Source: Tubulanus polymorphus (taxonomy: Eukaryota > Nemertea > Palaeonemertea > Tubulaniformes > Tubulanidae). From it: a stretch of 64,000 bases of DNA. Positions 36,895-56,319 of this stretch are shown piece by piece. The stretch's first letter is position 1; each line of letters begins with the position of its first letter. Where the stretch lies: positions 5,031,001 to 5,095,000 of the forward strand of contig NC_134029.1 of the NCBI RefSeq assembly GCF_964204645.1, read 5' to 3'. The notes under the pieces were generated by a model, which worked only from the letters and a program-made list of their open reading frames with translations, made no database searches and was not told the origin of the DNA. The position numbers and the translations under genes were made by a program.

Positions 36895-37983
36895 TCAATT
36901 TTTCTTATATTTCGCTATCGTACGTTTCATTAGATCTAAGCAAGGTCCTAGTAAACGTTCGAACGATTCCCGCTCGAGAAATGCGACCTTGACCTTCCCG
37001 ATCGCGTAAACGTTGGCAGAACGAGGTTTGTTCTCGACGAGCGCCATTTCTCCGAAGTATTTCCCTTTCGTAGACCTCGCTATCTCGACTTCTTGTCCGT
37101 CTTTGTTAATCGTAATGCGCACCTCGCCGGTTTCGATGAAATACATACCATCCGCTTCTTCGCCGTCTTTAATGATCAAATCGCCGTCTTTGTATAACTG
37201 GGGTGTAAGGGCGTCTGCTAGATTCATGCGCTCGTAAGGTTCCAGAGTTGTTAACATCGGAACGCTTTCTAGCAGTTCCTCGTACATTTTCCGTTTCTTG
37301 AACGCGCTTTTCATCACGATGGTTCTGAACGATTTCCTATCCATCGCCCAAATTGTACCTTTCGATTTGGCGATGACGGTCGCCGAGCGCGGCATGTTAT
37401 ACATAAGCGCCAATTCGCCGAAACTACCTTTGTGCTCGAATTCGTGCACCTTTCTCTGTTCACCGTTGACAGTCACGAATACGTCGTAGACTCCTTCGTC
37501 TATGACGTAAAAGTTATCGCCGTCATCTCCTTGACGGATAATGAACTCATCCGGTTCGACACGCTTTTCAAACATGGCGTCGACGACGTCTTGCATTTGC
37601 TCGCTATCCAGAGATCGGAATAATAGAATACCTCTTGTCGACTCGATAAGTCGTTCTCGTTGCTCATCGGATTTCGGGTGCGCGATTCGTTCTTCGTCGC
37701 TGCTGTCGGCTTCCGGGTCGTATCGCTCGGCCGACACGGAATGACGACGAGCGAATCTGTTCTTCTGCGTCTTCGGCTTCAGTTCACACGGCTCCGGTTC
37801 TCGGGCGTCGTCGTCATCGTCGACGATGATGTACATGGGAACATTCTGCGGCTTTTTCGTGTCTCGAACCCGGGTGAAATATTTCACCGCGTAGTCGTAG
37901 ATATCCGTCGGTTTTTCTCGCAAAACAGACACGGTAAAATCCCGCAGCATGTCACCCAGACCTTCCGGTATATCGAAATTCAT
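36895..37983 (-). CDS. cAMP-dependent protein kinase type II regulatory subunit, single exon
   Basis: A regulatory subunit of PKA that holds the catalytic subunit inactive until cAMP binds and anchors it to AKAPs. The 362-aa ORF has every RII feature. Residues 1-44 are the dimerisation/docking domain (IPEGLGDMLRDFTV...YAVKYFTRVRD). The inhibitor site is RRHSVSAE at 79-86, with Ser82 phosphorylatable, marking type II rather than type I. Two cyclic-nucleotide domains follow. The phosphate-binding cassette of the first is FGELALMYNMPRSATV and of the second FGEMALVENKPRSANV; both keep the essential Glu and Arg. The end, ERLLGPCLDLMKRTI, is about 15-20 residues shorter than vertebrate RII. PRKAR2 genes in animals normally have several introns, while this one has none. 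I therefore suspect a retrocopy, though the frame is fully intact. A CAAG/GTGAGT donor at 38072 may belong to an upstream leader exon. Confidence 0.96.
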   Translation of the reverse strand: MNFDIPEGLGDMLRDFTVSVLREKPTDIYDYAVKYFTRVRDTKKPQNVPMYIIVDDDDDAREPEPCELKPKTQKNRFARRHSVSAERYDPEADSSDEERIAHPKSDEQRERLIESTRGILLFRSLDSEQMQDVVDAMFEKRVEPDEFIIRQGDDGDNFYVIDEGVYDVFVTVNGEQRKVHEFEHKGSFGELALMYNMPRSATVIAKSKGTIWAMDRKSFRTIVMKSAFKKRKMYEELLESVPMLTTLEPYERMNLADALTPQLYKDGDLIIKDGEEADGMYFIETGEVRITINKDGQEVEIARSTKGKYFGEMALVENKPRSANVYAIGKVKVAFLERESFERLLGPCLDLMKRTIAKYKKN

Positions 37984-38072
37984 CTCGAGGGTTGCACGTA
38001 CGTCAGAATGTACACAATATCAGAATCGTAAAGATTCGAGACGGTTTTTGGTTTTTAGTTTCAGAACTCACC

Positions 38073-41522: not shown

Positions 41523-42915
41523 TCAGTTCCAGCCCCATTCATTGCTTTCAGCGCTTTCGTGGCTGTGCTGGTTGATTACAGTTATTTTACCCCCGCCAGT
41601 TCCAGGGCAATTTATCGTGTGAACTAACAAAAGCAAGATGGAAAATATGGATAAGGCATATATGGTATTATATCTAATATCATAGAACAAATATTAAATC
41701 GACAATGAAACCTTCCATAAAATATATAGCCTCCCATAAAAGAAAAGGCCTTAATAAGATCAGGGGATCGATTTTATAGACTAGTATTACCTTTTACCCG
41801 GGAGCTAATTCAATTGATAATGAATTGAATTAGCTTCCGGGCTAAGCGTAATACCAATCTATAAAACCGGCCCAGGGTTTTAGGAGGCAGCCATCTTTTT
41901 ATGGGAGGCGATTTTTTTAAAATTTATCTTTTTTTTCAACTCAACACTTCACTTTGAATTTCGATTATCTAACATAACCTACCGTTATTTTTCCTTTCGA
42001 ATGCCCACGGGGCGCGTTTAAATTCCCACTCGGAGATCACACCGTTACCTAAAACAGATATACCATTTGTTCAAAGTATTTTTCAAAATTTCGGGTGTTA
42101 CTTTTCCTTCCTCGGTCGGGCTTTGAGTCTGAAGAAGGGTGATAGTAACCACCCGAAATATTTCTAGTAATTTCAAATAAACGTTTTATGTCAATTTATG
42201 AATGTGCGATTTTACGTGGGGTTCTCACGTAACAAAACGTAGATTATCGTTACGGATCACCTATTAGTACCTTCCAAAAGATTTGCAGCATGGTTTGATT
42301 CAATTAATTAAATGACCAGTAAAGACCCGAACGAATACTTACGGTTTCGGTCAGCCAGTTGAAACATTCTCGATACGGCAGACGTGCTGACTTTAAGGGC
42401 TAGACTCAACTCCGTAAGCGTAAGATAATCGTTATCGTCCAGATCATAGTAGTCCATATCGGCTGGCAGCGGAATATTGCGACCTTGAACCTGTAAGACA
42501 TAATCAAACTGAATGAAAAACGAATTATCTCGATCTGAAAATTCTACGATAGTATTTTCAAAACGCTTATCGAAAAACGAGAGGAGATATCAAGACGAAT
42601 CATTGTAAATCGGTCATCGTTCTACTAATTGGAATAAATGGTCCCACGGGGCTTTCGGCATTCAATACTAACCCCTACAGCGCGCTTCTGTCTTTCGTGC
42701 GGGCACAGATTACGGTAATGGATAGCGCACAGTCCATCCACTCTACAGAACCAGGCACACAAATGCGGACACTGTTGTGTCAAACTGGCTGTTTCGTTAA
42801 AGACGACGGGTTTGTGTTGATCAGGTTTATGAGGCATAGGCGACGGTTTCGCCGGCACGACGAGCCCGTGCGCGATAGAAAACGCGACAACCAAAAATAT
42901 CAGCGTTAACTTCAT
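41523..42915 (-). CDS. Secreted Cys-rich, furin-site, two-EF-hand protein (paralogue 1 of 2)
   Basis: I do not know a named family for this protein. Exons, in order: 42915-42679, 42490-42343, 42048-41983, 41623-41523; 183 aa. All splice sites are GT-AG with phases 0, 1, 1, the same as the neighbour at 44201. The start at 42913-42915 was chosen over an in-frame ATG further upstream because an acceptor (TTATTTTCAG) ends 7 bp before it. Residues 1-18 are a signal peptide. Residues 19-48 are Pro/Lys/His-rich, with one N-glycosylation site. Five Cys follow (49, 53, 57, 63, 71; CX3CX3C at the start), then the furin-type site RQKR at 75-78. Two EF-hand loops come next: DLDDNDYLTLTE (95-106) and DRNRNGVISEWE (126-137), with Asp/Asn and Glu at the calcium positions. 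The tail is Gly- then Glu/Asn/Trp-rich. The protein is probably extracellular and calcium-binding; its function is unknown. Confidence 0.88.
41768..41873. mobile_element. Family A palindromic element, copy 2, in intron 3 of the minus EF-hand gene
   Basis: Left CGATTTTATAGACTAGTATT and right AATACCAATCTATAAAACCG form an imperfect inverted repeat around TTGATAATGAATTG, matching copy 1 at 25592-25693 in layout and sequence. Confidence 0.7.
42129..42158 (+). ncRNA. Hammerhead-ribozyme-like core in intron 2 of the minus EF-hand gene (antisense to it)
   Basis: CTGAAGA, one base, stem GGGTG/CACCC (42137-42141 and 42150-42154) around ATAGTAAC, then GAAA. AAATAAAC follows 17 bp later, as at the other two loci. 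The stem sequence differs from theirs but pairs equally well, which argues for structure rather than simple sequence descent. Confidence 0.4.
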
Positions 42916-43159
42916 CGTTATCCTGAAAATAAACAATGCAAAATCCGATACGGTTCAGGGATGTGGTAGTATAGGTGCAAATCCTGAGATAATTTCTACA
43001 ATAGCTCTTAAATAGATTCTATGATTATATATTGGTGACTATATGTGACTGAATTAAATAAACTAACTATGTAAAATGTAGAAAAATGATTCAGTTATTT
43101 TAGCTGAAACGATAAGCCACACATAACCAACTTACTGCTTGAAGCACTTGAAAACATAC

Positions 43160-43222
43160 CTTGCTTGAAGAATTGTTGCAGTTCTACAAAGCTCCTTTTC
43201 TCGGTTGTCAAATAATGCGTTC
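43160..43222 (-). other. Non-coding first exon of the minus EF-hand gene (inferred)
   Basis: The donor AAG/GTATGT ends it at 43160; the acceptor before the coding exon is at 42923-42925. Its far end is estimated from the TATA box about 30 bp upstream. Confidence 0.5.
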
Positions 43223-43245
43223 TGAATTCCGGTCCGAAAGAAACT

Positions 43246-43253
43246 TATTTATA
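43246..43253 (-). promoter_or_regulatory. TATA box (TATAAATA) of the minus EF-hand gene
   Basis: Minus strand reads GGTATAAATAAG, placed suitably upstream of the inferred leader exon. Confidence 0.6.
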
Positions 43254-43907
43254 CCATTTCGTTGAAGTGGAATTCCCATTTTTATCTGCCCGCTGTGATT
43301 CAGCAATTTGATAGTCTGAAAAACATTTTTATCGCAGACATAAATTGAACAAAGTTCAAGACATTTTTCAAGAGTTTTTTGTTCGGACGAGTAGTGAAAT
43401 TTTTAAGGCCATCGATGATTCTAGAATGAATTGAATATCTTCGATTTTATAAACCGTTTGAATAATGAATTTGAAACTGAATGCAATAACAAAATAATGT
43501 TCCTAAGCACTAGAAATTCTTTTGTGAATCTAATTACAAATAGAAAAGTTGTCAACCTGAAAAAAACGCTTCAAGCAAGTAAAAAAAGAAACTGTTTTTT
43601 TAAACTCGATCAATATCTTAACTGTGGGCATTATCAAAAGTGCCGTTTGCTACTAAACGACTAAATTGTCAAATTAGTAGAAAGACTAACGCCAGACATT
43701 AAACAGGATTACACTCAATAACTGCCATAAAACCTATTTTTTGAAATTGAATATCTCCTTGAAACGTGACTCGTAAATGTCTTAATCGATATTTTGTCTT
43801 TTCGATTTACGTCATCGGGATGGTTCGATCACTCTAAAACACTTGAATTTGAACCTTTCAAGTGGCTCAGTCTAGATTAATGTGTAAAACCCACTACATT
43901 CGACCAG

Positions 43908-43914
43908 TATAAAA
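43908..43914 (+). promoter_or_regulatory. TATA box (TATAAAA) of the plus EF-hand gene
   Basis: CCAGTATAAAATG, about 30 bp before the likely transcript start. The inferred non-coding leader exon runs to 43999 (CAAG before GTAATG) and splices to 44196 (CGCAG acceptor), five bases before the ATG. Confidence 0.65.
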
Positions 43915-44200
43915 TGATGCTCGGTTATCGGGATATTCACATTGAATTCGGCGAAAGTGAGTGTACACTACAGTAGAAGATCTAACGACAAGAATCAAGG
44001 TAATGGCAAATGAATTCTGCATATTTTTTTAGCGCTGAAAATTCCAAATTATCCTTTGTACCATGCAAAATTCGACTCATTCTTTCATGATATTCTAACT
44101 TTTCACGTTATTCCCTCCCTTATAAAATCCTGGGGTTATTTTTTGCGGCTGAAAGGTAGCATGTCCTAATCATACTCTTTTCCACATTTTCGCAGTCAAC

Positions 44201-45529
44201 ATGAAGTTCGCATTGTTGCTACCGATCGTTGCTATGGTGACATTGTTTGGATACAGCGCCGCTGATTGCAAACGTGAATGTGAATTACAATGCGTGCTGG
44301 AGGATGGTGAACGAAGATGTGATGCCCCTTGTCCAATTAGATGCGGAAAAGTCAGATCAAAGAGAAACATTTCATTCCTGAAGGTAGTAAACCGTATCCA
44401 CGTTTCATTCATCATTGTTCTCTACTATAAATCCTCTTTTATTGAATTATTGTTATAGTTATATATAGTTTATTTCCACAAGAAATTGCAACAAATTCTA
44501 TGTTTATAAAGGATGTTCCAATGTCAGTGGTAGGTGCTCATTTAAAGCAAGGTTGCTTGTCGGGTATGAGACACCTATCCCTCACACGCATTCAAAACAC
44601 ATATACTCACCAGGCATTAGTTCGATTATCTTGTTTCATTCTCATCAATCTGAATCCAGTTCTACAGTTAAAATATGAACATGTCCCGGCCTTTCATCCA
44701 GGTCTTTGATCTAAAACATGTACGCTATTTTACATTATTTTGGCCTTTTTTTGTAGCAAAATGGAATTCACGTTTCGAGGTTTCCAGTCGATATGGACTT
44801 TTACGACATCAACGATGACGATCGCATTTACCCCCGGGAACTCAGCTTGGCTTTGAACGTACCTGCAAAACAGGTTATGCAGATGTTTCGAGCAGCCGAT
44901 CTCGACCGTAAGTTTGAATTTAACGCTCCTGATGGCCCACTCGAATGAGGACTCAATGAGTTGTCAGTATGGTCTGATATCTGTTTAACTAGTTTTCTTA
45001 TTCAACAGGCAACGGTTACATCAGTGAGAATGAATTCAAAAGGGCACCATGGAGATTTGAAAACAAAAATAAAAGTTAGTATACATGTGGGCTTTAGGGA
45101 TATCAATATTGCATATGTAATTCGTTTCAAACTCGCTATTAAAGCGCTTATGGGCACGACAAAGTTCTTTTCCAATTTCTGGTGCAGTTTATATAAATGA
45201 ACAATCAATTCACCATGATTCAATTCCATGAACGTGGATGGACGAGGCCACTTGACAAATAGTTGAATTTCATTTGATTTGTTGCTTATTCACGTGATTT
45301 TGTCTCTATAAATCGATGTACATACTAATTGGAAATTCTTCGGTTCTAATCAATATCGTATCAATATTGTTCACTTGATTTTATATATATATATATATAC
45401 ATTCAAACAAACAATCAAGACGCATCTTGATAATGATGAACTTTGATGTTTTTTTCAGTAAACGGAGTTCTTTGCCAAAATATCGGTCACGGAACACACG
45501 CTGTTATTGTCAACTCAGATGGAGATTAA
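44201..45529 (+). CDS. Secreted Cys-rich, furin-site, two-EF-hand protein (paralogue 2 of 2)
   Basis: Exons 44201-44383, 44757-44907, 45009-45074 and 45459-45529; 156 aa, GT-AG throughout. Residues 1-21 are a clear signal peptide. Residues 23-48 hold six Cys spaced CX3CX3CX8CX3CX3C, a symmetric pattern that suggests two helices pinned together. RSKR at 52-55 is a furin-type site. Two EF-hand loops follow: DINDDDRIYPRE (78-89) and DLDRNGYISENE (109-120), the second fully canonical. Then comes EFKRAPWRFE, shared almost exactly with the paralogue (EFKRAPWAFE). The last exon ends VIVNSDGD. The two genes share intron positions and phases, the Cys-then-furin layout at the end of exon 1, and the MD(F/Y)YD entry to EF-hand 1, so they are tandem-inverted duplicates. 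Cleavage by furin would release a Cys-rich peptide from the EF-hand module; that processing is inferred. Shell-matrix, haemolymph or signalling roles are all possible. Confidence 0.9.
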
Positions 45530-54235: not shown

Positions 54236-54918
54236 AGGAACAAAAAATATTTCTACGGATCTAATGTGGGTTTTCATTTGTTATTGGCTCGAGGTTTCTA
54301 AAAAAAAATTCTAAATAAAGATCTTCGGCGAATTCCCAAACGACGAAGCCACTTGGAACTGTTTTTTTTTGAAAGATTGAATAGGGCGTGCGATTAACAA
54401 GAATAACAAGAACGATAATTTGAAGATCTGCGTTAAAACTTGAACGAGGAAGTTGCTATGAGTTATCCTTACAATGTCATTCAAAGTAATTCTAAAAGTA
54501 AAATCGAAAGAAAGAGACCTTCATTAGGAAACCCTGCAACTACTTAGATAAGCTCAAATTAGTTCCGCTCCAGATGTGCCTCGTTAGCAAAATGGATTGA
54601 TAAAAGTCATCAGAAAATCATTGTAACAATCGATGAATTCTCCTTTGTAAATAACTTGACCAGAAAATGCGTTCCATCGCGTCACAGGACTACAGCTGTT
54701 GATATTAAGTGAACGTATGACAACATACACATTGGGCATATATTGTATATATAACTGTATATGAAGATGGATGTATCATTTGCGTTTCGTTCATGCAGGT
54801 ATCATGTAAAATCCAATGTATTCAAACATTTGGTCAAACAATCAAGCAATCAATATTTTTTTTTCCGTTTTATAGGTGTCGCCTTTATCATTTGTTATCG
54901 ATCTATATTACTATTCAA

Positions 54919-56319
54919 ATGGCCTCTTCATCGTCTTCGAAAAGTCGTCCGAACATCATCTTCATTGTAGCCGATGATCTAGGATGGAATGACGTCGGTT
55001 GGCACAATCCAGCGATTATAACGCCGAACTTGGATAGTTTAGCCAAAACCGGCATCATCCTCAATCAGTCGTACGTGCAGCCGGTTTGCGCTCCATCTCG
55101 GGGAGCCTTTCTCACCGGATATTATCCATTTCACATCGGACTCGTGCAGCATTTTGCCACGGTTCGTCTACCGCTCAATTTGACGATCTTGCCGCAGAAA
55201 CTGAAGCAGGTCGGTTATAGTACGCACATAGTCGGAAAGTGGCATTTGGGTTTTTGCCATTGGGATTACACACCAACCTACCGCGGCTTTGATTCGTTCC
55301 TCGGTTTATATTTAGGGTCAGGAGGCCATTTTGATCATAAACATTCTGGCAAATTTGATCTGAGATTCAACACGGAATCCTCGTGGAATTTTAAAGACTC
55401 GTACAGCAGCGATCTATTCACTGCACGCGCTATTCAAATCATAAGGCACCACAAGCATTCCGAACCGCTGTTTCTTTATTTGCCTTTCCAAAATACGCAT
55501 GGACCACTCGAAGTTCCGGATAAATTCAAGAACCTTTACGAAGATATCCATGAAAAAAATCGCCGAACGTTTTCCGGAATGGTGTCAGCCCTGGATGCTG
55601 CAGTCGGAACTGTGACAACCGCTTTGAAAAACAACGGACTGTATGAAAATAGCATCATCATATTCACTACGGATAATGGTGGAACGCCAGATAATGCCGG
55701 TAACAATTGGCCGTTGCGCGGTAAAAAGGGTTCAGTTTGGGAAGGAGGCACTCGAGGTGTAGCCTTTATTCACAGTCCTCTCCTCGAAAAATCTGGATTC
55801 GTTTATAACGGTTTGATCCACGCTGTGGATTGGTTTCCGAGCATCTTATCAATGGCGTCAACGAGTACGAGTGATGATATAGATGGCGTTGATTTCTGGG
55901 TGAAGATCAAGGGCAATGAAACATCGTCTAGAACTAAATTCGTTTATGACATCAGCGAACGCCATAAAAAGGGCGCAATCCGTGATGGAAAATATAAACT
56001 TATCGTAGGTTATGGTGAAAATGCGGGAAGTTGGTATCCGCTAGATGGTAAAACGATCGATCCCCCTGATGACCCTTCGGGGGCATATCATAATGCTGAC
56101 CATACAACTTCCGGTGATGAATGGTCGTTTGAAGATGTGAAACTATTTGATTTGAGTAGAGACCCAACTGAACATAATGATCTATCGAGCAGATACCGCA
56201 AAAAAACACAACAAATGCTCGAAGAATTCAAGAATCAGTTGAAAACTCTGAAACACGAGAACCGCACTGTATTACATCCAACATTTGCCAATCGAACGTG
56301 GGGCCCTGGGTGGTGCTGA
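54919..56319 (+). CDS. Arylsulfatase B-like sulfatase, single exon
   Basis: Formylglycine-dependent sulfatase; the family removes sulfate from glycosaminoglycans or related substrates in lysosomes or outside the cell. From the ATG at 54919 it is 466 aa. It opens RPNIIFIVADDLGWNDVG with the paired metal-binding Asp (19-20). The signature CAPSRGAFLTG has the Cys (57) that becomes formylglycine and the required Pro-Ser-Arg. GKWHLG, TTDNGG (Asp252, Asn253) and WEGGTRG complete the active site, and PGWC is a usual terminus for invertebrate ARSB-like proteins. The start is uncertain. No good signal peptide follows this ATG, although the family needs one. The open frame continues upstream to 54793, but a strong acceptor (T-rich tract, then TTTTATAG at 54875) suggests that a first exon with the signal peptide lies upstream. 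AATAAA follows at 56570. Confidence 0.93.
   Translation: MASSSSSKSRPNIIFIVADDLGWNDVGWHNPAIITPNLDSLAKTGIILNQSYVQPVCAPSRGAFLTGYYPFHIGLVQHFATVRLPLNLTILPQKLKQVGYSTHIVGKWHLGFCHWDYTPTYRGFDSFLGLYLGSGGHFDHKHSGKFDLRFNTESSWNFKDSYSSDLFTARAIQIIRHHKHSEPLFLYLPFQNTHGPLEVPDKFKNLYEDIHEKNRRTFSGMVSALDAAVGTVTTALKNNGLYENSIIIFTTDNGGTPDNAGNNWPLRGKKGSVWEGGTRGVAFIHSPLLEKSGFVYNGLIHAVDWFPSILSMASTSTSDDIDGVDFWVKIKGNETSSRTKFVYDISERHKKGAIRDGKYKLIVGYGENAGSWYPLDGKTIDPPDDPSGAYHNADHTTSGDEWSFEDVKLFDLSRDPTEHNDLSSRYRKKTQQMLEEFKNQLKTLKHENRTVLHPTFANRTWGPGWC

Follow-up and report, generated by a model that had tools for sequence, protein, structure and literature searches.

A head-to-head gene pair for predicted two-part secreted precursors, with a cysteine-rich peptide and an EF-hand region, in the nemertean Tubulanus polymorphus

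Mytimycin is an antifungal peptide of mussels, suggested to be confined to Mytilida in the passages of PMC8004829 that treat it. There its precursor consists of a 23-residue signal peptide, a 54-residue peptide with 12 cysteines and a 75-residue C-terminal extension that carries an EF-hand, is anionic, follows a dibasic site and has a role stated to be unknown. The same passages describe mytimycins as a multigene family with pseudogenes, assign 10 to 14 cysteines to the peptides and mention a non-coding first exon, and the mytimycin gene sequences, in the portion of PMC3210125 that presents them, have three exons. Here we describe two genes arranged head to head in a 64,000-nucleotide stretch of the Tubulanus polymorphus genome (C5:5031001-5095000, hereafter the window; plain coordinates are window positions). 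Like mytimycin, their predicted products combine a signal-like start, a Cys-rich peptide, a basic site and an EF-hand part in that order, the comparison being one of layout and not of sequence.

A first-pass annotation of this DNA had recognized the two-part layout and knew of no named family with this order. That statement was mistaken because the order of parts has been published for mytimycins, at least in those passages of PMC8004829, and the pair is not isolated, being part of a family that numbers at least 11 loci in the same genome. On balance, and with moderate confidence, we read these genes as secreted precursors of one family, each comprising a Cys-rich peptide to be freed and an EF-hand pro-domain, with the family producing host-defence peptides and the window pair forming a divergent branch of it.

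Architecture of the window pair

Gene models built from the DNA give the plus-strand gene four coding exons spanning 44201-45529 and a product of 156 residues, and the minus-strand gene four coding exons spanning 42915-41523 and a product of 185 residues. The exons start in phases 0, 0, 1 and 1 in both genes, the introns between them are GT-AG, and 1286 bases separate the two ATGs. Each gene has a TATAAA box, at 43908..43913 on the plus strand and 43248..43253 on the minus strand, with a plausible donor site downstream. The identical phases and the two TATA boxes bear out the first-pass annotation, which had also placed a leader exon spliced close to each ATG. A CAG acceptor does lie 5 bases (plus gene) or 7 bases (minus gene) upstream of the ATG; the leaders themselves are probable non-coding exons read from the sequence alone, at 43938..43999 (+), with a donor after AATCAAG, and 43160..43222 (-). 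Their starts were set by eye, for the plus gene about 30 bases 3′ of the TATA box.

Coding exon 1 of the plus gene (44201..44383, +) encodes a signal-like start, a peptide with the six-cysteine pattern CX3CX3C-X8-CX3CX3C and the basic site RSKR. Its counterpart in the minus gene (42673..42915, -) encodes a signal-like start, a Pro-rich stretch, a five-cysteine cluster (CX3CX3CX5CX7C) and RQKR. Coding exon 2 (44757..44907, + and 42343..42490, -) contains the first EF-hand, DINDDDRIYPRE in the plus gene and DLDDNDYLTLTE in the minus gene, and the beginning of the second. The remainder of the second EF-hand lies in exon 3, together with EFKRAPWRFE in the plus gene (45009..45074, +) and EFKRAPWAFE in the minus gene (41983..42048, -), and exon 4 (45459..45529, + and 41523..41623, -) supplies a one-Cys tail and the stop. 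The signal-like starts (judged by eye), the CX3CX3C opening of both clusters, the adjacent pair of canonical EF-hand loops in each protein and the EFKRAPW(A/R)FE motif all agree with the earlier description. The basic site had been placed exactly at the end of exon 1; in fact the exon continues for six residues past RSKR and for three past RQKR.

Both window proteins exceed the cut-off of some Pfam EF-hand models, the minus protein differing by one residue from the final model in the Pfam run and in one EF-part genome query. No Pfam family matched the Cys part of either gene. A resemblance to NCBIfam XopAW was confined to the EF-hands and lay far below its cut-off (at best 29.9 against 120), and we rejected it. 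When the two genes are compared with each other, the two longest matches are the coding exons 2, and the remaining inverted and direct repeats are short. Within the minus gene's last intron lies a nested inverted repeat (41720-41918) with 50-base arms that are 82% complementary and outer 22-base arms that are 86% complementary, possibly a small transposable element of inverted-repeat type.

Relatives elsewhere in the genome

Searches of the 268-Mb assembly (77 contigs) with the EFKRAPW pattern and with protein queries from exon 1 and exon 2 of a relative identified nine further loci with the shared layout, seven intact and two broken. They lie at C5:0.63 Mb (one), C5:22.31-22.33 Mb (six), C6:20.34 Mb (one) and C11:13.90 Mb (one). 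Most matches to the pattern itself arise by chance, since a search allowing up to two mismatches returned 88 matches and its reversed control 73. The two exact matches are the window pair, seven family members are among the nine one-mismatch matches, and two more are found among those with two mismatches. The one-mismatch sites also include C1:4639347 and C6:20305108; the latter was discarded as a family member, the stretch around it containing no EF-hand frame. A protein search of the genome with a relative's exon additionally gave a weak match on C3 (E 0.73).

All nine intact genes, the window pair included, have four coding exons with phases 0/0/1/1, two canonical 12-residue EF-hand loops per protein and a basic site between the halves, which reads RDAR in one relative. 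Exon 3 is 66 bases long in eight of them and 60 in the other. A TAG or CAG acceptor occurs within about 10 bases upstream of the ATG in eight of the nine, and an N-glycosylation sequon no more than 12 residues past the cleavage site likewise in eight, the minus gene having its sequon before the site. This retention of signal-like start, Cys-rich exon, basic site and EF-hand exons in nine intact genes, together with the opposite charges of the two halves in the seven relatives (see below), supports the two-part secreted precursor proposed in the first-pass annotation. Its assembly by exon joining is plausible. Both broken copies belong to the C5 cluster and have a stop codon within the signal-like part of exon 1, which in one copy is also split by an insertion; these copies show gene turnover in the family. 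About 1 kb upstream of one family member, the reverse strand of locus L040 (2049-2996) contains a frame that by eye resembles a seven-helix receptor.

A profile of the seven relatives aligns with a profile of the window pair from the Cys cluster through the tail (hhalign probability 99, E 6e-18). The observed layout is beyond chance, given that the seven relatives share exons and phases and that their profile matches both the Cys and the EF parts. Genome searches with the EF parts of the window proteins returned the pair itself and weak others, including the relative at C5:0.63 Mb (E 1.67 and 0.16), and we consider the pair divergent because of these weak matches. In a tree of EF parts the two window proteins group together (support 0.999) on a long branch.

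Homology also extends to exon 1 of the plus gene. A relative's exon 1, used as a blind query on the 268 Mb, recovers it (E 0.039), and when it serves as the query with a limit of E 10, it matches two relatives (E 0.057 and 0.37) and nothing else besides itself. Its hidden Markov model (HMM) score of 19.8 bits was reached by none of 1000 full shuffles and none of 1000 Cys-fixed shuffles, and a single hhalign comparison gives E 4.4e-7. A search of the PDB with the exon-1 profile produced no match up to E 10. With the whole profile, the best 60 of 331 chains, among the matches listed, align in the EF part. A weak match of 7yrw to the Cys part of the minus gene (E 0.35) was not taken up.

Charge, rates of change and candidate functions

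Charges and lengths were calculated with signal-peptide ends placed by eye. In all seven relatives the predicted peptide is cationic, with 29 to 43 residues and a net charge of +5 to +10, and the EF part is anionic, with a net charge of -9 to -18. The corresponding values are 0 and -2 for the plus gene and +2 and -4 for the minus gene. The peptides also tend to change faster than the EF parts: 20 of the 21 pairs of relatives have the higher nonsynonymous rate (dN) in the peptide, several synonymous rates (dS) being saturated, and the exception is g21583 versus L040 (0.24 in the peptide, 0.28 in the EF part). Nonsynonymous change per site was higher in the peptide in each of four pairs tested further (p 0.025 to 5e-14).

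In the most likely scheme, the precursor would enter the secretory pathway, with exon 1 supplying a short disulfide-bonded peptide behind its signal peptide and exons 2-4 an EF-hand pair serving as pro-domain. A furin-type protease, as the RXKR motif suggests, would cut after the basic site and release the peptide. The EF-hand part would bind calcium and assist folding of the Cys-rich peptide, and in the cationic relatives it would mask the charge of the peptide until release. In the window pair, with its near-uncharged peptides and weakly acidic EF parts, the target may have changed. For the family as a whole we favour a role in defence because of the charge pattern, the gene turnover and the parallel with mytimycin.

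Several observations weigh against this interpretation. The window peptides are near-neutral rather than cationic, and a classical antimicrobial role is less convincing for this pair as a result. Exon 1 of the minus gene scores 2.3 bits with the HMM, a value reached by 139 of 1000 full shuffles and 552 of 1000 Cys-fixed shuffles, and as a genome query it matches only itself. Exon-1 homology to the relatives is thus supported for the plus gene and not for the minus gene, whose EF part, exon phases, Cys motif and RXKR site are the grounds for placing it in the family. One intact gene, g7156, lacks an acceptor before the ATG, unlike the others. As for the rates, the peptide/EF contrast in the ratio of nonsynonymous to synonymous change has p below 0.05 in only two of the four pairs, which were drawn from the 21 and have genes in common. 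Moreover, some pairs have strongly different dS in exon 1 and in the EF exons (1.00 versus 0.07 for g7156/g14275), pointing to gene conversion or exon exchange and weakening the argument from rates. Some copies in the C5 cluster (C5:22303001-22333000, L041-L043) have a synonymous divergence in exon 1 very unlike that in their EF exons, as if the exons had been exchanged or homogenised separately.

The same near-neutral charge, and the lack of a close copy of the window exon 1 sequences elsewhere in the genome, would suit neuropeptide or hormone precursors whose peptide acts through a receptor and which include an EF-hand region. In a snail, a gene active in giant interneurons reportedly carries peptides and an EF-hand region together, going by a title. 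However, the homologous peptides of the seven relatives combine small size, positive charge and a wealth of cysteines with fast change, and the cluster contains broken copies, all of which fits defence better; we judge a neuropeptide family to be unlikely. For the window pair itself, with its neutral peptides, signalling is the main rival to defence.

The two canonical EF-hand loops in each protein could alternatively belong to calcium-binding matrix or mucus proteins that are secreted and stay uncleaved, the Cys-rich part merely cross-linking them; a secreted EF-hand shell protein is reported (PMC10741955). The basic site between the halves in all nine intact genes, even if in the form RDAR in one, and the opposite charges of peptide and EF part in all seven relatives argue against this idea and make it distinctly improbable. 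Small disulfide-rich peptides, a multigene family and fast change would also befit peptides that are secreted in venom or mucus for offence or deterrence and have an EF-hand pro-domain, but the Cys part has no Pfam match to any such family and we give this explanation very little credence.

Other features of the window comprise an open frame of 374 codons at 36898-38019 (-) that matches a type II PKA regulatory subunit, with two cyclic-nucleotide-binding stretches, and an open frame of 532 codons at 54721-56316 (+) that matches a sulfatase. An Rfam scan of the window returned nothing at gathering level. Genome searches for COX1 (with 8 of 14 controls matching), molluscan haemocyanin and the annelid erythrocruorin linker gave no match; the latter two gave none in any control genome either, so they do not establish absence.

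Comparison with peptide precursors of mussels and plants

Mytilins and myticins, antimicrobial peptides of mussels as portrayed in parts of PMC7168163, are made with a signal peptide, a cationic Cys-rich peptide and an anionic tail. Those parts report a proposal that the mytilin tails act as pro-domains, aiding folding and keeping the peptide neutral until it is released, and give the mytilin cysteine array as C-X3-C-X3-C-X4-C-X11-C-X-C-X-C-X2-C, which has only the opening CX3CX3C in common with the genes described here. According to the sections of PMC8004829 on mussel peptides other than mytimycin, their tails, unlike those in our family, have no EF-hand.

The Pfam model Myticin-prepro (PF10690) matches five of the seven relatives weakly (best E 3.7e-4), its best score of 21.1 bits lying under the curated cut-off of 28.5. 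Run on exon-1 stretches, it gave 19.3, 12.2 and 16.5 bits for three of four relatives and no match to either window gene. Of the four controls, two were Cys-fixed shuffles, one of which scored 12.2 bits, level with one of the real relatives; neither the full shuffle nor the shuffle of the signal peptide was matched. A genome search with PF10690 found no match, its controls giving none either. We did not adopt a link to myticins: the score is below the cut-off, and shuffling the signal peptide abolishes the match.

Plant alpha-hairpinins have two CXXXC motifs on two helices, joined by nested Cys1-Cys4 and Cys2-Cys3 bonds (PMC7191063). Two CXXXC motifs separated by a loop are likewise present in the plus gene and in all seven relatives; the minus gene departs from this arrangement with CX7C as its second motif. 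Five of the relatives have the six-cysteine pattern CX3CX3C-Xn-CX3CX3C. The other two, close paralogues, have four cysteines and lack the first and the last together, as would be expected of nested bonds of the alpha-hairpinin type in a hairpin that pairs Cys1 with Cys6; the joint absence may reflect a single event. Unlike the plant peptides, these are products of animal genes with up to six cysteines and an EF-hand tail, and the likeness is one of motif.

The parallel with mytimycin also has limits. One relative has RDAR in place of a dibasic site, and the EF parts of the window pair are only weakly anionic. All nine intact genes encode peptides with 4 to 6 cysteines, in contrast to the 10-Cys backbone of mytimycins; the double CX3CX3C of the plus gene and five relatives is not the mytimycin pattern; and four coding exons replace the three exons of the mytimycin genes. 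Nor is a family named mytimycin among the Pfam matches of the window proteins and their relatives. The order of parts is thus known in outline from mussels, whereas the number and pattern of cysteines and the four coding exons differ. Among the open-licence papers listed, we found none that describes an EF-hand tail on this Cys scaffold, which does not disprove that such a description exists.

These comparisons allow a tentative proposal, which we rate as conceivable but short of probable: the family may represent an undescribed class of animal defence peptides, defined by a double CX3CX3C hairpin and an EF-hand pro-domain, that arose separately from mytimycins or shares an older common ancestor with them. 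Calcium could then govern the switch between storage and release, and the uncharged window pair may have acquired a new task. If a second family combines this order of parts with a different Cys scaffold, EF-hand pro-domains would seem to be a solution that recurs, and the coexistence of charged and uncharged versions within one family would offer a means of testing the role of the pro-domain.

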